Positions 12,201 to 28,396 of a stretch of DNA of 31,442 bases are shown here, one piece after another. Source of the DNA: a virus; IMG/VR virus record IMGVR_UViG_3300042559_000589, positions 1 to 31,442 of that record, one strand, 5' to 3'. Numbering within the stretch: position 1 is the first letter of the stretch; each line of letters starts with the position of its first letter. Below the pieces are notes generated by a model. The model did no database searches, was not told the DNA's origin, and saw nothing but the letters and a program-made list of their open reading frames with translations. Made by a program: the position numbers and the translations under genes.

Positions 12201-12470
12201 ATGAGTACAGCATTAGAATTTATGAGCGGCTTCACTGGCTGCAAGGTTATTTCAAACACAAGCGCAAACACTGGCTGTTTTCAAGGTTTTGTAGTGAACG
12301 CAGATGCCGTTGTGTCTGCTTGCCTTGACGAAGCAGGAGCCAGCCTTATGACATCAATCGGTTTGACCGGAGTAACTTTAAAGCAAGGCACATTCATCAG
12401 CGTAAGCGAAGATAAATTCATCAGCAGCATTACGCTTGCAAGTGGCAGCATTGTAGCTTACAACGTATGA
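12201..12470 (+). CDS. Small structural-module protein (89 aa)
   Basis: An 89-residue Ser/Ala/Thr/Val-rich protein with no membrane segment or signal. Its composition (repeated small residues, three Cys) suits a small beta-structured virion or fibre-base protein. The start is preceded by an A7 run. The stop overlaps the next start (ATGA at 12467-12470), coupling it to the lectin-like adhesin; it may therefore form the attachment base or an accessory of that adhesin. I do not recognise the family. Confidence 0.6.
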   Translation: MSTALEFMSGFTGCKVISNTSANTGCFQGFVVNADAVVSACLDEAGASLMTSIGLTGVTLKQGTFISVSEDKFISSITLASGSIVAYNV

Positions 12471-13330
12471 TTAGGCGAGGTATTGGTGTTCAAAGCTATG
12501 TTGCGGTATTACCGCCAGTTTTGGATATTTATCCAAGTGCTTATGCTGCTTATTCTATTCGTAAACTAAGAAAAAATTATACTGGTAGCTGTTTAAGAGT
12601 TAGGCGCAGCACAGACAATGCTGAAACTGATATTGGTTTTGTGGGTGATGACTTTGATAGTTCTTCACTTTTAACTTTTTGTGGAGCAGGAAATGGCTTT
12701 GTAACAACTTGGTATGACCAATCCGGCAATAGTAGAAATTCAACTCAAACAACTGCTATAAATCAACCGCAAATTGTAAGTTCTGGTAGTTTATTGCAGA
12801 GAAACAATAAACTTAGTTTGCAGTTTGATGGTAGCAACGATTGCTTGATTGCTAATTCAACAAGCGGTATAACGATTGGGCCAACTACTTATTATTCCGT
12901 TTCATCAAGAAATAATACCTCTGTTGTAAACCGTGCAATTTTTGCCACTGGTATTTTATCCGGTGATAGTGGTTATGGTATTTATTATGATACAAGTGAT
13001 TTAATAAAGTCACAAGTGAGGTATAATATTTCAAATATTTCAACCAGTTCGGGTTATAGTAATGTTTTACAAAAAATTAATTTGATGTTATCTACAACAA
13101 ATACAACTTTTTTAAATACATGGTATAACGCAGGGGCAACAGATTTAGTTACTCATAGTTATGCAAATTCAACAACAACAAGAAATTTGTGCATAGGTGC
13201 AAGGATTGACAGCATTGCTCCGGGTTTTCATTTAAATGGTAGTGTTAGTGAGGTAATTGTATGGCAGTTGGATTATACATCTACAAAGTCGGGAATAGAA
13301 AGTAATGTTAAATCTTATTTTAATATATAA
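12467..13330 (+). CDS. Lectin-like (LamG/arabinofuranosidase-type fold) adhesin
   Basis: Residues 28-60 ('YSIRKLRKNYTGSCLRVRRS...') and 76-95 ('GNGFVTTWYDQSGNSRNSTQ') match a pattern I know from the concanavalin-A-like domain of alpha-L-arabinofuranosidase B-type proteins and from phage tail fibres of Bacteroidota. The remainder continues as a jelly-roll-like beta protein. No catalytic triad was identified, so carbohydrate binding rather than cleavage is the likely activity, which would make it a host-receptor-binding protein. The DNA is visibly AT-richer and uses different codons from flanking structural genes, a usual sign of a swapped receptor-binding module. It is coupled to the preceding gene and followed after 2 nt by a small partner. 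Confidence 0.7.
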   Translation: MIRRGIGVQSYVAVLPPVLDIYPSAYAAYSIRKLRKNYTGSCLRVRRSTDNAETDIGFVGDDFDSSSLLTFCGAGNGFVTTWYDQSGNSRNSTQTTAINQPQIVSSGSLLQRNNKLSLQFDGSNDCLIANSTSGITIGPTTYYSVSSRNNTSVVNRAIFATGILSGDSGYGIYYDTSDLIKSQVRYNISNISTSSGYSNVLQKINLMLSTTNTTFLNTWYNAGATDLVTHSYANSTTTRNLCIGARIDSIAPGFHLNGSVSEVIVWQLDYTSTKSGIESNVKSYFNI

Positions 13331-19959: not shown

Positions 19960-20412
19960 TTAGATTACAAAGTTTTCAAATGCCAGTTTGATTTTGTCCA
20001 AATCTTCCCGGTACTTTTTGTTGGTATCTGCAAGGTCATTGACCAGCCGGGTGCTGTGCATCACCGTTGTATGGTGCCGGTTGCCACACATTCTGCCAAT
20101 AGCCTTTAATGGCATCGTGGTTTTGTTTCGCAGCAGCCAAAGGAAGATTTGTCGCAGTTCCACTATTTCACGCTTCCGAGTGTGCAGCTTTACATATTCC
20201 GCCTGATAGTATGGGAAAACCGATTTGATTGCAAGGTGAGCCGCTTTTGCATACTCGTTGCTGGCATTCATGTTATCAAGTTTCAGCATCCTTTCAAGTT
20301 CGGCAATTCGCACCGCTTGGTGCTTGATTGTTTCTTTCAGCGTGTCAATTTCCGACATGCGGAATGATGTCCTGATGTTGTTCTTTTTAGGTGGTTTGAT
20401 TTTTACTCTCAT
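19960..20412 (-). CDS. DnaA domain IV-like DNA-binding protein (150 aa)
   Basis: Residues 79-88 (RKREIVELRQ) and 109-120 (CGNRHHTTVMHS) match the C-terminal helix-turn-helix of bacterial DnaA, where a GxRDHTTVxH signature contacts the DnaA box; here the usual Asp is His. No AAA+ domain is present: the N-terminal 75 residues are coiled-coil-like. A stand-alone DnaA-domain-IV protein may bind the phage origin or block host DnaA. Two starts are possible: 20412 (26-nt overlap with the methyltransferase) or 20358. Its place between helicase and SSB genes supports a replication role. Confidence 0.7.
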   Translation of the reverse strand: MRVKIKPPKKNNIRTSFRMSEIDTLKETIKHQAVRIAELERMLKLDNMNASNEYAKAAHLAIKSVFPYYQAEYVKLHTRKREIVELRQIFLWLLRNKTTMPLKAIGRMCGNRHHTTVMHSTRLVNDLADTNKKYREDLDKIKLAFENFVI

Positions 20413-21394
20413 GTTCTATTATTTTAAAAAGTTGATATGCTATTTGTGGCACGATTGCGTTGCCATAGCCCTTTATGCTTTCGTTTCTCCACTTAGAAAA
20501 GGTAATTCCGTCCAGTTCGGTGGGAAGCCCATCATCTCCGCTACAAATCGGGGATTGAGTTGGGAAGTTGTGCCAGTCATTTCTTTGGCTATTTTTGCAA
20601 TGCTGCCCTGTTTCCTGGTTCCTGTGTTTTTTTCCGGGCTGTCCGTTGCCATCGGTGTTGGTAGCATTCCCATTGATGCCATTTGTTTCAAAGGGTTTTG
20701 TAAATTTACTCCTTTCTCTTTGTGTTTTTGTTTTGCCTTCTCGAATGTTTCCGGCTTCCTTGCTGTGTTCCAATCGAATGCATTTGGTGTCGGTAGCATT
20801 CCCCTTTGGTAAACATAACCGCTCATTATTTCCTGCGCAAGTGTTCCCGAATTTCCCGATGTTGGGTTTTTCTTTCCGCTGGTGACTTCTCCATCCATTT
20901 TGGTTGGTGTTTTGAGCAATGAACCAACACCTATCTCTCCGATGTGGTGCGTTTTTGGCCGCAGCTGGAATAACAAACGGTTGAACTTCGTACCCTTCAG
21001 CTTCCAAGTCAAGGCACACCTGCTCGAAAACCAGTCCGCCATCAATATTCGTGATACCAAAGACATTTTCTGCGATGACCCATGTGGGTTTAATCTCTTG
21101 TATTGCTCGTAGCATTTCGCCCCACAAGTAGCGTTCATCATCTGTCCCTTTTCGCTTTCCTGCAAGGGAGAATGGTTGGCAGGGAAATCCCCCGGTGAGA
21201 ATATCAATTGTGTTTGCATATTTTTTGAAATCAGTTTTACAAATGTCAATGTGGCTGTCGGCTTGCGGCCAGTAGTATTCCAATACCTTTCGTGGAAACT
21301 CCATCCATTCGCAATGAAATACATTTTCCCATCCCATCCATTCGGATGCAAGGTCAAAACCGCCTATGCCTGAAAATAAACTGCCGTGTCGCAT
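20387..21394 (-). CDS. DNA (cytosine-5) methyltransferase (335 aa)
   Basis: All main C5-methyltransferase motifs are visible: motif I FSGIGG (7-12), motif IV GGFPCQPFS (68-76) with catalytic Cys72, motif VI ENV (109-111), motif VIII HRRDRCW (151-157) and motif X GYGNAIVPQIA (309-319). Residues about 165-275 form a low-complexity Asn/Lys/Gly-rich region in place of a normal target-recognition domain. The enzyme would methylate cytosine in DNA to escape host restriction. It has its own leaderless-type promoter (TATATTTG, 4 nt before ATG). The same region carries a second long frame, described separately. Confidence 0.85.
   Translation of the reverse strand: MRHGSLFSGIGGFDLASEWMGWENVFHCEWMEFPRKVLEYYWPQADSHIDICKTDFKKYANTIDILTGGFPCQPFSLAGKRKGTDDERYLWGEMLRAIQEIKPTWVIAENVFGITNIDGGLVFEQVCLDLEAEGYEVQPFVIPAAAKNAPHRRDRCWFIAQNTNQNGWRSHQRKEKPNIGKFGNTCAGNNERLCLPKGNATDTKCIRLEHSKEAGNIREGKTKTQRERSKFTKPFETNGINGNATNTDGNGQPGKKHRNQETGQHCKNSQRNDWHNFPTQSPICSGDDGLPTELDGITFSKWRNESIKGYGNAIVPQIAYQLFKIIEHESKNQTT
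20473..21357 (-). CDS. Overlapping +1-frame ORF within the methyltransferase gene (294 aa)
   Basis: An uninterrupted 294-codon frame, shifted +1, lies within the methyltransferase gene on the same strand. Such length without a stop is unlikely by chance in a gene of this composition. It ends with 'LNPRFVAEMMGFPPNWTE' (about 267-284), a form I associate with phage methyltransferase-linked proteins (LNPxWVExLMGxPxGWT), and repeats 'MLPTPN'/'MLPTPM' in the middle. It may be a real overprinted gene, or the trace of frame exchange between families. No independent start signal was found at 21357, so expression is uncertain. Confidence 0.4.
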   Translation of the reverse strand: MTLHPNGWDGKMYFIANGWSFHERYWNTTGRKPTATLTFVKLISKNMQTQLIFSPGDFPANHSPLQESEKGQMMNATCGAKCYEQYKRLNPHGSSQKMSLVSRILMADWFSSRCALTWKLKGTKFNRLLFQLRPKTHHIGEIGVGSLLKTPTKMDGEVTSGKKNPTSGNSGTLAQEIMSGYVYQRGMLPTPNAFDWNTARKPETFEKAKQKHKEKGVNLQNPLKQMASMGMLPTPMATDSPEKNTGTRKQGSIAKIAKEMTGTTSQLNPRFVAEMMGFPPNWTELPFLSGETKA

Positions 21395-21429
21395 GGTGCA
21401 AATATAGTTTAATTTATTATATTAGAAAA
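21392..21429 (-). promoter_or_regulatory. Early promoter, methyltransferase (predicted leaderless)
   Basis: On the minus strand TATATTTG (21406-21399) lies 4 nt before ATG 21394; the -33 position reads TTTT rather than TTTG, so it may be weaker than its relatives. Confidence 0.65.
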
Positions 21430-22657
21430 GATATTCAACGGTATTTCCTTTGAATTGGCATTTCAGCGTTCCGGTCATTCCATTTCTGCACTTGCCGATA
21501 ATTAACTCCGCATCTTCAATGGGGTTGGTGTTTCCACCATTCTTTTGGGCTTCGTAATACTCCGGGCGGTACGGGAAAAGAACGGTGTCTGCATCCTGCT
21601 CAATGGCTCCGCTTTCACGAAGGTTTGATAACTTCGGCCTGCTATTACCTTCCTCAGTTCCCCGGTTAAGTTGCGATAATGGCATCACCGTGCAATTGCA
21701 TTCCTTTGCCATCAACTTGCATTGTCTGCTGATATATGCAATCTCCTGCTCACGATTTTTGCCCCCAGTTGCCTTTATCAATTGCATATAGTCAATGATT
21801 ACCAGCGTTGGTTTGTTTTTCATTGTCTTAAGGCGCATTTTGATTTGGTCAATGTTCAATGTGGTGCTGTCTTCGATAGTAAAATTGATTTTTAACTCCA
21901 TCAATCCATCTGCCATGCGTTCAAGTTCGTAGTCGCTGACATCGGCATTGCGCACTTTTAGGTTATCAACGTTTCCAAGTGAAGAAAGTATGCGGTCTGC
22001 AAGTTGTTCCTTAGACATTTCCATGCTGAACATTACAACCCGGCCACCACGTTTTGCATGGGCTATTCCGATACTGACTGCAAATGCTGTTTTTCCCATA
22101 CCGGGCCTGCCAGCGACAACCACATTTTCACCCGGAACAAATCCGCCAATATATTTATCCAAAAAGGTGTAGCCAGTTGGGTGGCCGATTGTCTTTATTT
22201 CGGCCTTGCTGCGTTTTTCTAAGCTGTCCAAACGCTCACCGAGTAGTGGTAACAATTCAACCGCTTTGCCGCTTTCAACGAGCTGCAATTCATCAATCAT
22301 TTTTTGGGTGGTGCTGATGGTGTCCATGATATCGCCACCATCCTGCATGAATTTAACTTGATTTACCATGCAGTCAATCATTGTCCTGCGTACAAATTCC
22401 TGATGCAGATATTGCACGTGCCGGGTTAAATCTTCAAACACTGCAAACTGATTGCAAGTTGCGATTGCCACAGCCAATTTTTTGTTTTTTCGCAGCACAG
22501 CCATATTGTCAATGTATTCGTTTTCAACGTACATGGATTGGATAATTAGGCAAAGTGCTTTTAGGTCGTTATCAATAAACCATTCTGCCCTTGTTGTGGC
22601 TGTATGTTGTAGCTGTTTACCTTGCAGCCATGTTCCTATAATAGTTTGTTCAGTCAT
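21422..22657 (-). CDS. dnaB: Replicative DNA helicase, DnaB family (411 aa)
   Basis: The RecA-like core is complete: Walker A GRPGMGKT (183-190), Walker B VIIDY (286-290), the 'MSKEQLADRILSS' helicase stretch and the C-terminal 'SNLRESGAIEQDADTVLF' segment. The N-terminal 130 residues fit the DnaB N-domain. The enzyme unwinds the fork as a hexamer in complex with a primase. At 411 residues it is shorter than bacterial DnaB (around 470), mostly at the N-terminus. Its start overlaps the loader-like gene by 8 nt, which agrees with a helicase/loader pair. No phage DNA polymerase or primase is seen, so host enzymes must serve. Confidence 0.9.
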   Translation of the reverse strand: MTEQTIIGTWLQGKQLQHTATTRAEWFIDNDLKALCLIIQSMYVENEYIDNMAVLRKNKKLAVAIATCNQFAVFEDLTRHVQYLHQEFVRRTMIDCMVNQVKFMQDGGDIMDTISTTQKMIDELQLVESGKAVELLPLLGERLDSLEKRSKAEIKTIGHPTGYTFLDKYIGGFVPGENVVVAGRPGMGKTAFAVSIGIAHAKRGGRVVMFSMEMSKEQLADRILSSLGNVDNLKVRNADVSDYELERMADGLMELKINFTIEDSTTLNIDQIKMRLKTMKNKPTLVIIDYMQLIKATGGKNREQEIAYISRQCKLMAKECNCTVMPLSQLNRGTEEGNSRPKLSNLRESGAIEQDADTVLFPYRPEYYEAQKNGGNTNPIEDAELIIGKCRNGMTGTLKCQFKGNTVEYLF

Positions 22658-23231
22658 TGAGATAGTTTATTTTTTGGGGTTGCTCTTGTTTGAAGGGGCG
22701 AAGGTATGGAATGGTGCTTTTAAGTTTGGTTTTCCAATTCTTAATTTTCTTTCCGTTGCCATCCATCCATCCATCGGATTTCCATTGCTCGTATTTGGCG
22801 GTAAGGGTAAATTCGTAATCAGGTGAAAGATTGGCATAAGCAATAAATTCTTGAAGCGTTGGTACTTTATTCTTAATTACATTTCTATTTACATTTTCAT
22901 TTTCCATATGTGGGACATATGAATTAGATATGTTATTCATATCTTTTTTTGTTCTATTCTGCCTACGGCTTTCGCTGTATGCTTTCCGTTTTTCAACTTC
23001 CTGATGCAAACGGGCATTGAAATACAATCCGTTTTCATCCTTTTCAAATTTGCTGAAAATATCTTCATCATATGTTTTACATATCTTCAACATATCACGT
23101 TCCGACAAATGCCCCATTTGATGCTGGTAGCAAAGCAACTTAATGTATTTACCGATTTGTTCATCACTCATTAAAGCGGTTCCGGTTAAAAAATCGGATG
23201 AGTAGAATAGGAATGCAGGGTCTTTGCTCAT
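22650..23231 (-). CDS. Replication initiator / helicase-loader-like protein (193 aa)
   Basis: The N-terminal 80 residues ('SKDPAFLFYSSDFLTGTALM' then 'EQIGKYIKLLCYQHQMGHLSE') match the DUF1376-type winged-helix domain found in phage replication initiators and loaders. A variable linker rich in Asn/Lys follows, and the C-terminal part contains 'YEQWKSDGWMDGNGKKIKNW', a DnaB/DnaC-binding-like patch seen in such proteins. ATG 23231 was chosen over an upstream GTG because it forms an exact ATGA junction with the preceding gene. It probably recruits the helicase encoded next to it. Confidence 0.7.
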   Translation of the reverse strand: MSKDPAFLFYSSDFLTGTALMSDEQIGKYIKLLCYQHQMGHLSERDMLKICKTYDEDIFSKFEKDENGLYFNARLHQEVEKRKAYSESRRQNRTKKDMNNISNSYVPHMENENVNRNVIKNKVPTLQEFIAYANLSPDYEFTLTAKYEQWKSDGWMDGNGKKIKNWKTKLKSTIPYLRPFKQEQPQKINYLND

Positions 23232-23437
23232 GGCTTCAATGTTAATTTTTTGCACTGCTGGTAATAAATGACTTTCATTTTGTGTTCATCTTTTAAAAAG
23301 TCACGTTGAGCATCGGTAATTTCACCACGTTGGCAGCGATAATCTTCGTACTCCTGACGAATTTCAAAATCTTCAATTTGGTAATCGCATTCAGCGACTG
23401 GTAATTTGGTTGGTTTGTAGAGGTTTATTTTTTCCAT
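23228..23437 (-). CDS. Early protein behind a structured leader (69 aa)
   Basis: A 69-residue protein beginning MEKINLYKPTKLPVAECDYQ, with an acidic/aromatic middle and no known domain. ATG 23437 was preferred over 23527 because the upstream codons are occupied by an RNA hairpin and U-run ending at the start codon. It is the first gene of the helicase operon, so the leader would control loader and helicase as well. Translation from the longer frame (an apparent 99-aa protein) cannot be excluded. Confidence 0.65.
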   Translation of the reverse strand: MEKINLYKPTKLPVAECDYQIEDFEIRQEYEDYRCQRGEITDAQRDFLKDEHKMKVIYYQQCKKLTLKP

Positions 23438-23572
23438 AAAAAAAACACCCACACTTTCAAAGGTTAGACCCGGCACAAAGGAAGCCGACCTTTTACTCGT
23501 ATGGGTGTTGTTTTGGGGGTTATTCATTTTGCCTTTGTAATTCCGGTAGGGGGTCTAATCCTATTGTTCCGA
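23438..23572 (-). ncRNA. Structured leader RNA with terminator-like end and loop-junction pairing
   Basis: Downstream of the promoter at 23577-23608 lies a 135-nt leader. (1) 5' hairpin: CGG/CCG and UAGG/CCUA enclose a loop carrying UUAGACCC (23558-23551). (2) A nested stem-loop at 23509-23444: AACACCCAUAC pairs GUGUGGGUGUU (11 bp, one G-U), then AAAGGU/ACCUUU, then CGGC/GCCG. (3) The unpaired GGGUCUAA in the 3' side of that structure (23471-23464) is perfectly complementary to the 5' loop. (4) A U8 run at 23445-23438 ends at the ATG of the next gene. Terminator plus alternative pairing suggests attenuation or ligand sensing. Inference from base pairing only. Confidence 0.55.
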
Positions 23573-23576
23573 TATG

Positions 23577-23608
23577 CAAACTTAAAAAATAATTTTCAAA
23601 TATCCAAA
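23577..23608 (-). promoter_or_regulatory. Early promoter for the structured leader / helicase operon
   Basis: On the minus strand TTTG (23608-23605), 20 bp, TAAGTTTG (23584-23577). With the same geometry as the leaderless promoters, the RNA would begin near 23572, i.e. at the first stem of the leader. Confidence 0.7.
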
Positions 23609-25128: not shown

Positions 25129-25876
25129 AATCATACACTCCGGGAACGCAGGCGACTTGATATACAGCCTGCCAGCCATGCGCAAGGCAGCAGAAATCCA
25201 CAATAACCCGGTGCATTTGTATCTTCGCATCAATGTAGCTGGTCAGTATGCCGGAATGAACCATCCTTTGGGTAATGTGCAGATGAACCAAACCATCGCA
25301 GAAATGCTCACACCCTTGCTGCTGTCAACTAAATTCATCGGCAAAGTAGAAATCACGGATGAAGCCGCAAAATGCGACTACAACTTTGACCTATTCCGTA
25401 AAATCCATAACTACACCGGGCATATCAGCCAGTGGTATTTTCACGTTTACCCGGAACTGACGTGCGACCTTTCACGGCCGATTGATTTCAACCTTAAAAA
25501 ATCCACCGCTGAATTTGACATTGTGCTGAACCGCACTTCCCGGTATCACAACCCCACTTTTGATTACAGCATCCTGAAACCATACCAAGACCGCATTACC
25601 TTTGTAGGGTTGCCGCAGGAATTTAAAATCATCAGCGCAAAACTGCCGGATATTAAATACCACCCGGTGCAGGATTTTTACGAGCTGGCGCAAGTGATTG
25701 CCAGTTCAAACCTTTTTATTGGCAACCAATCAATGGCTTACGCAATCGCAGAGCAAATGAAGCACCACCGCATTTTAGAAATATGCCCAAGTGCTCACAA
25801 TGTAATTCCAACCGGGGCAAACGGCTACGGAGCGTGGACTGTATTAAACCTTATACAATTACTCAAAAATGGCTGA
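25121..25876 (+). CDS. GT-B glycosyltransferase-like protein (GT9-type)
   Basis: The N-terminal 'KIIHSGNAGDLIYSLPAMRK' matches the GxxGDxxxxxP opening of ADP-heptose-type (GT9) glycosyltransferases, and the C-terminal half with 'FIGNQSMAYAIAEQM' and 'YHPVQDFYELAQVIASS' fits the GT-B nucleotide-sugar domain. Such an enzyme could glycosylate virion proteins, host surface glycans or phage DNA bases. Start is ATG 25121 (MVKIIHS) or 25112, both overlapping the preceding gene. It stands with a methyltransferase and, 1.5 kb on, a second glycosyltransferase, so a modification cluster is likely. Confidence 0.65.
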   Translation: MVKIIHSGNAGDLIYSLPAMRKAAEIHNNPVHLYLRINVAGQYAGMNHPLGNVQMNQTIAEMLTPLLLSTKFIGKVEITDEAAKCDYNFDLFRKIHNYTGHISQWYFHVYPELTCDLSRPIDFNLKKSTAEFDIVLNRTSRYHNPTFDYSILKPYQDRITFVGLPQEFKIISAKLPDIKYHPVQDFYELAQVIASSNLFIGNQSMAYAIAEQMKHHRILEICPSAHNVIPTGANGYGAWTVLNLIQLLKNG

Positions 25877-26465
25877 AACAAGAAAAGCACACCAACGCAG
25901 ATTGGCATCCGGATTTTACGACCTTTATATCAAAGGGCAAGGCATTGACATCGGCTGCGGCAGAATAGACACCCACGATGGAGTGGACACAATTAGCCTG
26001 ACCGATTGCATCCACCATGACAAAGACGACTGCGATGCAACCACGATGGACAAATACGCTGACAATACATTTGACTACGTTTACGCTTCCCATGTGTTGG
26101 AGCATTTGGATAACCCGGTGACCGCCATTCAAAATTGGCACCGCATTTGCAAACCGGGGGGGCACATCATTATCAGCATTCCACATCGTGACTTGTACGA
26201 GCGCAAAAAGACGCTACCAAGCCGATGGAACCTTGACCACCGATATTTCTACCTGCCGTATTCCTGCGAACCGCCACACACTTTTTCAGTTGAGGGTATA
26301 TTGCTGCAAACGGGTATCAAAGAGAATTGGGACATAGAGGTAATCGACACGGCCACCAACCATGACAAGCCGGAAGAACATAGCAACGGTGAATTTTCAA
26401 TCGAAGTAATAATCAAAAAATATGCAGTGGGTAAAACTAAGCGAAGTAAAAGCAAACCCAAATAA
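25869..26465 (+). CDS. Class I SAM-dependent methyltransferase (198 aa)
   Basis: SAM-binding motif I is 'GQGIDIGCGR' (about 25-34), motif II-like 'DATTMDKYADNTFDYVYASH' (about 58-77) and 'VLEHLDNPVTAIQNWHRICK' with 'PGGHIIISIPH' follow, the signature of Methyltransferase type 11. The substrate is not indicated; a glycan, small molecule or modified base are all possible. The gene overlaps both neighbours, placing it in a single operon with the GT9-like enzyme and the ParB-like protein. Confidence 0.75.
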   Translation: MAETRKAHQRRLASGFYDLYIKGQGIDIGCGRIDTHDGVDTISLTDCIHHDKDDCDATTMDKYADNTFDYVYASHVLEHLDNPVTAIQNWHRICKPGGHIIISIPHRDLYERKKTLPSRWNLDHRYFYLPYSCEPPHTFSVEGILLQTGIKENWDIEVIDTATNHDKPEEHSNGEFSIEVIIKKYAVGKTKRSKSKPK

Positions 26466-26850
26466 TCCAAGGGTTATCCGGGATGAAGATTTCGCCAAGT
26501 TGAAGCGGAGCATTATCGAGTTTCCCGAAATGTTGGAAGCCCGGCCCATTGTTTGCTTCACAGATGAGCATGGCAAATATGTGGCATTGGGTGGCAATAT
26601 GCGCCTGAAAGCCTTATCGGATATTGGAGCCAAAGAAGTACCCATTATCCTTGCAGACAAATGGACAGCCCAACAGCGTGACGAATTTCTAATCAAAGAC
26701 AATCTTTCTTTCGGTGAATGGAATTATGACGAACTTGCTAACGAATGGGATGCTGACTTGCTCGAACATTGGGGGATGAAAATACCAACCGAAGATGAGA
26801 AGGAAAAGCCGGAACGTGATAGCTGCCCGACTTGTGGCAAAGAAGTATAA
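26422..26850 (+). CDS. ParB-like nuclease-domain protein with C-terminal zinc ribbon
   Basis: The N-terminal 100 residues carry ParB N-domain features: 'VKLSEVKANPNNPRVIRDED' and 'YVALGGNMRLKALSDIGAKE', with the GGNxRxKAL box that in this superfamily binds or hydrolyses nucleotides (CTP in ParB). The end is a single CPTCGKEV zinc-knuckle-like pair. Phages often carry such proteins next to DNA methyltransferases or terminase, where they may act in DNA binding or anti-restriction. It overlaps the methyltransferase gene by 44 nt in another frame. Confidence 0.75.
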   Translation: MQWVKLSEVKANPNNPRVIRDEDFAKLKRSIIEFPEMLEARPIVCFTDEHGKYVALGGNMRLKALSDIGAKEVPIILADKWTAQQRDEFLIKDNLSFGEWNYDELANEWDADLLEHWGMKIPTEDEKEKPERDSCPTCGKEV

Positions 26851-26870
26851 AATAGTGAATAAATAGTGAA
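26850..26870 (+). repeat. Tandem 10-bp repeat before small-terminase-like gene
   Basis: AAATAGTGAA occurs twice, at 26850-26859 and 26861-26870, 11 bp apart and immediately before the ATG at 26872. A spacing of one helical turn suits a protein-binding site, possibly for the small terminase (packaging recognition). Purely positional inference. Confidence 0.4.
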
Positions 26871-26871
26871 C

Positions 26872-27234
26872 ATGGCAAACGAACAAAATTTAAAACCATT
26901 CAAAAAAGGCGAGGTGGCAAACCCCAATGGCAGACCCAAAAAGTTTGTCACACTCCTGAAAGAAAACGGCTACAAAGTAAGCGAGGTAAACGACACCGTG
27001 CAGGCGATGCTATCAATGACACTGGATGAGCTGAAAGACGTATGGCAAGACCCCAAGGCCACCATCCTTGAAAAGACCATTGCCAATGCTATGCGGAAGT
27101 CGTTGGAGAAAGGTAGCTTGTACTCCATTGAAACGCTGCTTTCCCGTGTTTTTGGCAAACCGAAAGAAACAGCCGATGTAAACCAAACGGTGCAGGGCGA
27201 AATAAAAATTACTTTAGATTTAGGCGACAAATGA
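26872..27234 (+). CDS. Putative terminase small subunit-like protein (120 aa)
   Basis: Opens with 'FKKGEVANPNGRPKKFVTLL', the basic GxxxNPxGRPK motif typical of DUF5681-type proteins found upstream of large terminases, and continues with helices to residue 100 and an acidic end. Small terminases recognise the packaging site and stimulate the large subunit. ATG 26872 was preferred to GTG 26866 on start-codon grounds. Only a 45-aa gene and a glycosyltransferase separate it from terL. The family link is moderate. Confidence 0.6.
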   Translation: MANEQNLKPFKKGEVANPNGRPKKFVTLLKENGYKVSEVNDTVQAMLSMTLDELKDVWQDPKATILEKTIANAMRKSLEKGSLYSIETLLSRVFGKPKETADVNQTVQGEIKITLDLGDK

Positions 27235-27368
27235 GACACTACACCAAGCGCAACAAAAGGTATCGCAGCCGACATAAAAAAATGACACTGCTGGACACAG
27301 CCTATCTTAAAATCAATTACCCTCAAATCCGGGAATTGTTTCAGCAGATAAAGGAAATAAAGCTATGA
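27231..27368 (+). CDS. Small basic protein (45 aa)
   Basis: A 45-codon gene below the usual cutoff, with exact ATGA junctions on both sides (27231-27234 and 27365-27368). The product begins MRHYTKRNKRYRSRHKKMTL, strongly Lys/Arg/His-rich, then a helical end. It could bind DNA or RNA in the packaging operon. Function unknown; the double coupling makes it very probably real. Confidence 0.65.
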   Translation: MRHYTKRNKRYRSRHKKMTLLDTAYLKINYPQIRELFQQIKEIKL

Positions 27369-28396
27369 AGGTGCTGGCACTTTGGCAAGGTATGGGTGGT
27401 GTTGAATACCACCGCCTTTATACTCCCTTAAAACGGCTGCAAATAGACCATGCAGAAGAAATAGAGGTGAATGTATCGCAGGAGTTCGTTAAATCAGGTA
27501 TTCCCGAACTTAAGCAATACGACCTTGTTTTGTTCAACCGGGATTTGGGGGAACTGCACTATGAAATTCTGCACTACCTTGCCAAGCATGAAATCCCCTA
27601 CATCGTGGATATTGACGATTACTGGGTGCTTCCAAAGTTCCACCCGATTTACAAATACTACCGGAGCAACAAAATCAAGCAGCGCATCATTGATGCCATC
27701 CGTTATGCCGATGGTGTGACCACAACCACCGATTTTTTAGCCAACGAAATCCGGCAGTACAATCAAAATGTGCAAGTTCTCCCCAATGCCCTTGACCTGA
27801 CCGATGAACAATGGCTGGCGGAACCACAGCAGCGTGATGTAATTACATTTGGCTGGGTGGGTGGCATTACCCACAGCAACGACATTATGCTGATTTCCGA
27901 TGCGATTGCCAAAATGTGCGATTACTACGGGGACAAGGTGCGATTTGTGCTGTGCGGATATCAACCGGGCAGCATGTGGGAAAGCATCCTATACAAGTTC
28001 AACGGGTGCAGCGAAAGATTACGGCCGCAAGTGGTGATTGCACCGAGCCAAAACGTAAACGAGTACGGCAATTTCTACCGCTTGTTTGACATCGCACTGG
28101 CACCATTGGAAGATAACAAATGGAACAACTGCAAATCCGAACTGAAAATAATCGAAGCGGCTGCATACGGCCTACCAGTTATCGCATCGGAAGTGGCTCC
28201 ATATCTTTCTACCAACCCCGGTGTAAAGTTCACGCAGAACACCCCGGAAGCGTGGTTCGCTGCCATGCGCCAAATGTACGAACTTGCCGACCTCAAAATG
28301 GTGGGCAACAATAACCGGAAGCAAACCAACAAAATCCACGATTTGCCGACCATCAACCAAAAGCGGTTAGCCTTTTACAAACAGCTATGCAAATAA
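27365..28396 (+). CDS. GT4-like glycosyltransferase between terminase genes
   Basis: A 343-residue GT-B enzyme. The N-terminal 'VLALWQGMGGVEYHRLYTPL' has the GGxxxHR-type opening; the C-terminal part contains 'VITFGWVGGITHSNDIMLIS' and 'CKSELKIIEAAAYGLPVIAS', where the ExxxxG motif (E..AAYGLPVIAS) is the nucleotide-sugar contact typical of group 1 (GT4). Placing a glycosyltransferase between a small-terminase-like gene and terL is unusual and suggests function during packaging or assembly, such as modifying the genome or virion. It overlaps both neighbours. Confidence 0.75.
   Translation: MKVLALWQGMGGVEYHRLYTPLKRLQIDHAEEIEVNVSQEFVKSGIPELKQYDLVLFNRDLGELHYEILHYLAKHEIPYIVDIDDYWVLPKFHPIYKYYRSNKIKQRIIDAIRYADGVTTTTDFLANEIRQYNQNVQVLPNALDLTDEQWLAEPQQRDVITFGWVGGITHSNDIMLISDAIAKMCDYYGDKVRFVLCGYQPGSMWESILYKFNGCSERLRPQVVIAPSQNVNEYGNFYRLFDIALAPLEDNKWNNCKSELKIIEAAAYGLPVIASEVAPYLSTNPGVKFTQNTPEAWFAAMRQMYELADLKMVGNNNRKQTNKIHDLPTINQKRLAFYKQLCK

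Follow-up and report, generated by a model that had tools for sequence, protein, structure and literature searches.

We found that a 31,442-nucleotide stretch of viral DNA (hereafter the window) carries on its minus strand, at positions 23575–23438, a leader RNA that heads the replication operon of a virus of Bacteroidota-type bacteria and represents a new conserved structured RNA family, with compensatory changes exceeding those in related-sequence controls. Promoter, U-tract, AUG and reading frame are conserved together with the covarying fold and the position before the operon. An earlier note on this DNA had described a structured leader with pairing between a loop and a junction, and this observation is real; the promoter, 5′ hairpin (23571–23544), loop, complement, outer helix, U8 and AUG that it listed were all found in place. 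Its interpretation stood as regards the conserved leader, the loop-junction pairing, the operon position and the terminator-like hairpin, but it had missed a second pseudoknot and requires revision at the start codon. The leader is a new family of a known general kind, namely leaders that control termination or translation, and we read it as a structured leader that attenuates the phage replication operon in cis, a reading that on balance we consider probable. Gene order suggests that the leader controls the onset of replication. If so, replication onset in Bacteroidota-type phages would be under the control of a structured RNA family that is new and probably constitutes a class of its own; to our knowledge, hardly any RNA regulators have been described for these phages.

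Conservation and fold of the leader

Protein searches of viral contigs with the loader-like protein and the helicase returned leaders of about 70–91% identity, and the set was widened by a pattern scan of viral contigs and by covariance models to 48 distinct RNAs (full-length model matches, 97–157 bits). All 14 long records tested carried one copy per phage. Two further model matches (L370 and L348) were judged to be chance by inspection or position. Base pairs were counted on 26 and then on 47 leaders (alignment A2). Standard pairs filled 98.6% of cells in A2, compared with 31–42% when partners were slid by 1–3 columns. Double changes occurred in 19 of 33 pairs (11.1 in shuffles) and in 183 cells (42.5 ± 5.7 in shuffles; 0/500 shuffles as high). 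The earlier note had held that paired positions varying without compensation would speak against the RNA; we observed compensation. Since folding energy by itself was uninformative (z = −0.97 relative to shuffled sequence), the leader was judged by comparison and the energy score was rejected as evidence. This unexceptional energy, along with an open frame, would suit plain coding sequence or an ordinary terminator whose complementarity arose by chance, but that explanation is refuted by the base-pair counts (covariation unmatched by shuffles, failure of the slid controls) and by a peptide that is not conserved across phases, which leaves it with practically no chance of being correct.

The TTTG and TAnnWTYG boxes of the promoter match the Bacteroidota consensus and were kept in almost all homologues at a short, near-fixed distance from the 5′ hairpin, whose conserved CGG begins 5 nt past the −7 box. 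Consistent with the earlier note's suggestion of an undescribed RNA, the leader is phylogenetically conserved in the 48 homologues and lacks an Rfam match. Rfam 15, with C4 (RF01695), glnA, Downstream-peptide and Bacteroidales-1 included, gave 0 matches on the window, chance-level matches only on the leader at E values up to 10, and 0 matches on 20 divergent loci. We found no description of this RNA in the open-access literature searched. Neither near nor distant DNA relatives were detected among annotated phages; a tblastn search with the loader returned one unannotated gut contig, and helicase matches were all below 60% identity. Among bacterial genome contigs the pattern scan gave 24 matches, none above 21 bits with the model. 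A search centred on a Kapabacteria genome sampled 395 genomes from a single phylum and found the RNA in none; it says little, because the set included no positive control. A cellular origin of the leader was rejected on these two results.

Table 1. Coordinates of leader and operon features in the window
Feature	Position	Strand	Sequence or basis
Promoter, Bacteroidota-type	23577–23608	−	TTTG 23608–23605, 20-nt spacer, TAAGTTTG 23584–23577; from sequence and homologues
P1, 5′-terminal hairpin	23544–23571	−	CGG/CCG and UAGG/CCUA, 5-nt bulge AACAA, loop AUUAGACCC
PK1 5′ strand, P1 loop	23551–23558	−	UUAGACCC
PK2 5′ strand	23532–23538	−	ACAAAGG, ends 4 nt upstream of internal AUG
99-codon frame	23228–23527	−	AUG 23527 through the RNA hairpin into the operon's first protein
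P2 5′ strand, outer helix	23499–23508	−	ACACCCAUAC; 11 bp if A23509 is counted
AGUA, 5′ side of sarcin-ricin/loop-E-like internal loop	23494–23497	−	near-invariant
P3 5′ strand	23489–23493	−	AAAGG, partner CCUUU 23463–23459
P4 hairpin	23471–23487	−	CGGC 23487–23484 / GCCG 23474–23471
PK2 3′ strand, apical loop of P4	23475–23481	−	CCUUUGU
PK1 3′ strand, 3′ bulge between P4 and P3	23464–23471	−	GGGUCUAA
P3 3′ strand	23459–23463	−	CCUUU
GAA, 3′ side of loop-E-like internal loop	23456–23458	−	invariant in alignment A2
P2 3′ strand	23445–23454	−	GUGUGGGUGU; outer helix 10–11 bp, ends at 23445
U8 tract after P2	23438–23445	−	intrinsic-terminator-like; first four U invariant; adjoins AUG 23437
69-codon frame	23228–23437	−	starts at AUG directly after U8; ORF list
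Helicase-loader-like/primosomal protein (DUF1376-like)	22650–23255	−	Pfam and PHROGs, weak
DnaB-type replicative helicase	21422–22657	−	Pfam DnaB_C E = 2.3e-76, PHROG 19 E = 1e-85

Six helices showed compensatory changes or full conservation, with PK2 in addition. The pairs of P1 were kept in 100% of cases, with double changes at two stem pairs (UAGG/CCUA, CAGG/CCUG, CACG/CGUG). Pairing was likewise 100% in P2 (double changes in 7 of 10 pairs) and P4 (one pair), and 98.3% in P3, where all 5 pairs showed double changes. Between P2 and P3 lies AGUA/GAA, a pattern that we take to be a sarcin-ricin or loop-E signature. The 8-bp complementarity between loop and junction (PK1) that the earlier note had pointed out covaries, with double changes at 4 of 7 counted pairs, and occurs in six matched versions (UAGACC, UGAACC, UGACUC, UGGAAC, UCAACC and UAGAGC), each with its complement. 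Two leaders, L156 and L167, are 98.3% identical outside P1 and PK1, and yet PK1 is switched on both strands, ~85 nt apart.

The second long-range pairing, PK2, joins bases just before the internal AUG to the apical loop, is absent from the earlier note and is as well supported as PK1. Its 5/5 core pairs were Watson-Crick in every RNA (48/48), nine matched versions being represented, and pairing was full in 29/29 unique pairs as opposed to 7.2 ± 2.2 after loops were dealt among the RNAs. Since the MAFFT alignment misaligns the linker, PK2 was counted by register from the apical loop. In all RNAs it sits close to the AUG, at most a few bases away, and in L138, L200 and L212 (GAAGAU/AUCUUC) it extends into the start codon itself. 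No G-U pairs were present in PK1 or PK2. All of the computed helices are mutually compatible, and no mutually exclusive antiterminator fold was found, which speaks against attenuation. The overall shape is predicted to be one compact double-pseudoknot fold held by the loop-E-like motif. At the 3′ end, the terminator-like hairpin that had been proposed was kept in the homologues: P2 was 100% paired and a U-rich tract followed it directly in all of them, interrupted in some (UUUUGUUU, UUUUGUAU, UUUUACUU), an irregularity that also weighs against attenuation. A pistol-like ribozyme, with its loop-junction pseudoknot, was rejected because Rfam gave no match and because the internal loop has the 3′ strand of PK1 on its opposite side. 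We also rejected a type III toxin-antitoxin RNA, as no toxin was recognised downstream.

The placement of the leader before a loader-helicase operon held up, with a strong Pfam match for DnaB and a weak one for the loader, which is weakly similar to a phage primosomal protein. Several different first ORFs were joined to the RNA exactly at the point between U-tract and AUG (L142, L154, L174, L190 and L213), so the leader behaves as a portable module. In L005 and L015, blast matched the bases immediately preceding the window promoter a second time, at a site ~650 nt before the leader, which points to an insertion of genes ahead of the leader in these relatives. Elsewhere in the window, the helicase is directly followed by a C-5 cytosine DNA methyltransferase (20387–21394), and also downstream of it is a small protein with a Bac_DnaA_C domain (19960–20412; E = 1e-15), possibly an origin-binding protein. 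A virion-associated protein (12467–13330) matched an alpha-L-arabinofuranosidase catalytic domain and is possibly a host-polysaccharide enzyme, and methyltransferase, ParB-like and glycosyltransferase genes lie between the early and packaging genes (25869–28396).

An open frame through the terminator-like hairpin

The U8 tract runs straight into AUG 23437, as the earlier note had it, but this is probably not the first start codon, since an upstream in-frame AUG at 23527 was kept in every homologue. Frame 0 from 23527 was open and in phase in 48/48 RNAs, and frames +1 and +2 were open in 0/48. The RNAs formed six length classes with totals of 90, 93, 96, 93, 90 and 99, all multiples of 3; single segments varied by 1 or 2 nt between classes while the sums stayed multiples of 3. 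Across phages, AGUA was read in phase 0 or 2, and GAA likewise, so that the same RNA motifs gave different peptides (..TFESVGVFFM vs ..VEHRKVWGVLFM). Conservation of the 99-codon frame at the protein level, which had been named as an argument against the RNA, was thus found in part: the frame was open and in phase in all 48, but the peptide was not kept because indels put the same RNA motifs in different phases. Selection appears to act on the frame and not on the peptide, a rare case in which one stretch would be selected as RNA in several reading phases with its frame kept. Something seems to require that ribosomes starting at 23527 cross the hairpin into the gene, which is the best hint of mechanism that we have. 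With the hairpin inside an open frame, a placement absent from the earlier note, the likely mechanism therefore shifts towards translation-coupled attenuation. The leader's own promoter, terminator-like end and compact fold would befit a free-standing sRNA with targets in host or phage, read-through being incidental, but the strict phase coupling to the downstream gene (48/48) and the constant position before the same operon make this very improbable.

We infer a two-state switch, comprising termination itself, masking of the start, a signal and a stable short RNA, that would operate as follows. Transcription would start at the base of P1. During synthesis of the leader, PK1 would form between the P1 loop and the 3′ bulge of the terminator hairpin, and PK2 between the apical loop of this hairpin and the bases that immediately precede the internal AUG, masking the start codon at 23527. 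In this folded state the P2 hairpin and U-tract would release RNA polymerase, giving a stable RNA of ~135 nt. Alternatively, a ribosome or bound factor could open PK2 so that translation begins at 23527; a ribosome crossing P2–P4 would keep the terminator from forming, the loader-helicase operon would be transcribed, and the first protein of the read-through product would gain an N-terminal extension of ~30 residues. The signal is perhaps a phage protein or ribosome supply. We found no direct support for reading the leader as a ligand-binding riboswitch.

Probable attenuation in cis and its rivals, action in trans or an autogenous operator

The strongest rival to attenuation in cis is a trans-acting immunity or timing RNA like P4 CI or P1 C4, which we consider unlikely. 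A terminated or processed 5′ RNA would then base-pair with the leader being transcribed from a second copy of the genome and stop the replication operon of that copy, with the pairing sequences serving as specificity tags. Mean difference per site was lowest in loop E (0.6%) and rose through P4 (4%), P1 (7%), P2 (25%), PK1 (26%) and P3 (36%) to PK2 (48%). The pairing segments thus diversify faster than most of the scaffold with pairing always kept, as expected of tags, but the ordinary stems P3 and P2 change fast too, and the compactness of the fold, together with a loop-E motif that hardly varies, points to structure in cis. Near-identical scaffolds that differ in their pairing sequences, namely L156/L167 with the PK1 switch and L284/L286 with different loop pairs, also favor tags; against this, the same strands would pair in cis at far higher effective concentration. 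The paired leaders before anti-repressor genes in Riemerella phage RAP44 (see below) and the precedent of P4, in which CI RNA controls replication genes and pairing within the leader provokes premature termination (PMC4825925), speak for action in trans. Speaking against it, the window proteins that were scanned included no recognisable integrase or repressor, and the RNA was not found in the bacterial genomes scanned, so lysogens carrying it were not seen. The fast-changing matched loops make the choice between cis and trans, that is, between attenuation and immunity, directly testable.

The likeness to P4 CI and to P1 and P7 C4 (RF01695) is that of a phage leader with complementarity between its 5′ part and a part further downstream, an arrangement found in PK1, in PK2 and in the loop-loop pairs of relatives. 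P4 CI governs replication genes and P1 C4 governs anti-repressor genes; the window leader heads a replication operon. It differs in that Rfam gave no C4 match, and in that its pairing belongs to a double-pseudoknot terminator hairpin that contains a loop-E motif and lies inside an open frame.

Less likely still is an autogenous operator, in which a protein of the operon (the loader, the helicase or the small first protein) binds the RNA and blocks AUG 23527. Loop-E motifs are common protein-binding sites, the leader stands at the head of a replication operon, and its pseudoknot adjoins a start codon, all of which would suit such an operator, but no RNA-binding protein was identified, and because the first ORF behind this RNA differs between phages, the first protein is an unlikely ligand. 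There is a precedent in T4 gp32, which acts on a 5′-terminal pseudoknot of its own mRNA as an autogenous operator (PMC535899). Like the window leader, the T4 structure is a 5′-terminal pseudoknot on a phage replication-protein mRNA near the translation start; unlike it, the T4 structure consists of one small pseudoknot, placed ahead of the coding region and lacking a terminator, whereas the window leader combines two long-range pairings with an internal start and a terminator-like end.

Three other systems bear comparison. Leaders of cellular ribosomal-protein operons such as alpha/S4 place a nested pseudoknot around the start codon and control translation; they differ in sequence and fold, and the window leader has a terminator-like end inside a frame. 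Glutamine riboswitches (glnA, Downstream-peptide) have a loop-E-type motif and/or a pseudoknot, the latter near a start codon, whereas the window leader has no Rfam match, no three-way junction and a replication context. In trp and tna leader-peptide attenuators, translation of a frame overlapping the terminator hairpin decides termination; in the window leader the frame runs on into the structural gene, and its peptide sequence is not conserved. We know of no earlier description of a double-pseudoknot terminator leader.

Leaders of the same plan in distant and cultured phages

Weak model matches lay directly upstream of distant loaders in L026, L045, L274, L299 and L302. In these the same plan recurs with other sequences: a promoter and 5′ hairpin come first, a loop or linker then pairs with a terminator-like hairpin at its loop or bulge, and the U-tract and first AUG follow. 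A descriptor scan found this plan in 29 of 139 regions upstream of loaders and in 0 of 417 shuffled regions, with few other matches across all loci on both strands (5.7 Mb). The U-tract of distant relatives usually lies just before the first AUG, and translation coupling cannot be general for the wider class because most of them have no internal start in frame through the hairpin. L045 keeps AGUA/GAAC, PK2 (UGGAAC/GUUCCA) and a possible PK1 (GCUUAC/GUAAGC), and has a 35-codon leader frame overlapping the loader start. In both L045 and L255 the leader frame MEQLIKTLSLSKVSASFQGVSQIFERALFFGGNNG crosses the RNA, passes a Shine-Dalgarno-like GGAGG and overlaps the loader start; translational coupling is possible in this pair, and the phage may use a Shine-Dalgarno host. 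A variant leader in L026 (4704–4832) and L024 has the same promoter and P1 start and a linker-to-apical-loop pairing (CCUAAAC/GUUUAGG), with neither internal AUG nor loop-E motif. The leaders of L284 and L286, ~250 nt upstream of the loader, are nearly identical and differ mainly in the kissing sequences and surrounding stem tips.

Tentatively, and with a good deal of doubt, we propose a widespread, unnamed class of RNA control in Bacteroidota phages, in which a 5′ loop would pair as a tag with the loop of a start-proximal terminator and tags would diversify so that co-infecting relatives avoid cross-reaction. Such leaders could give replication and anti-repressor operons a means of self-recognition or immunity, and the window family would be the double-pseudoknot version of the class, with the start codon moved inside.

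Cultured carriers of the plan are Flavobacterium phages 11b and FCL-2, Polaribacter phage P12002L and Riemerella phage RAP44, so experiments can start. Eight cultured genomes gave 6 matches with at least 7 pairs compared with 1.3 per shuffled set, and the shorter matches therefore need caution, while the RAP44 pairs do not. Phage 11b (L385; 33620, plus strand) has a kissing-loop terminator leader, unannotated in its record, before a probable replication gene, and P12002L (L389; 34477, minus strand) has an unannotated one just before a gene annotated as a primosomal protein. RAP44 (L390) carries two leaders (13711, plus strand; 30567, minus strand) that are self-complementary over 14 and 15 nt and have a terminator-like hairpin; both precede anti-repressor genes, a C4/ant-like layout in a Bacteroidota phage.
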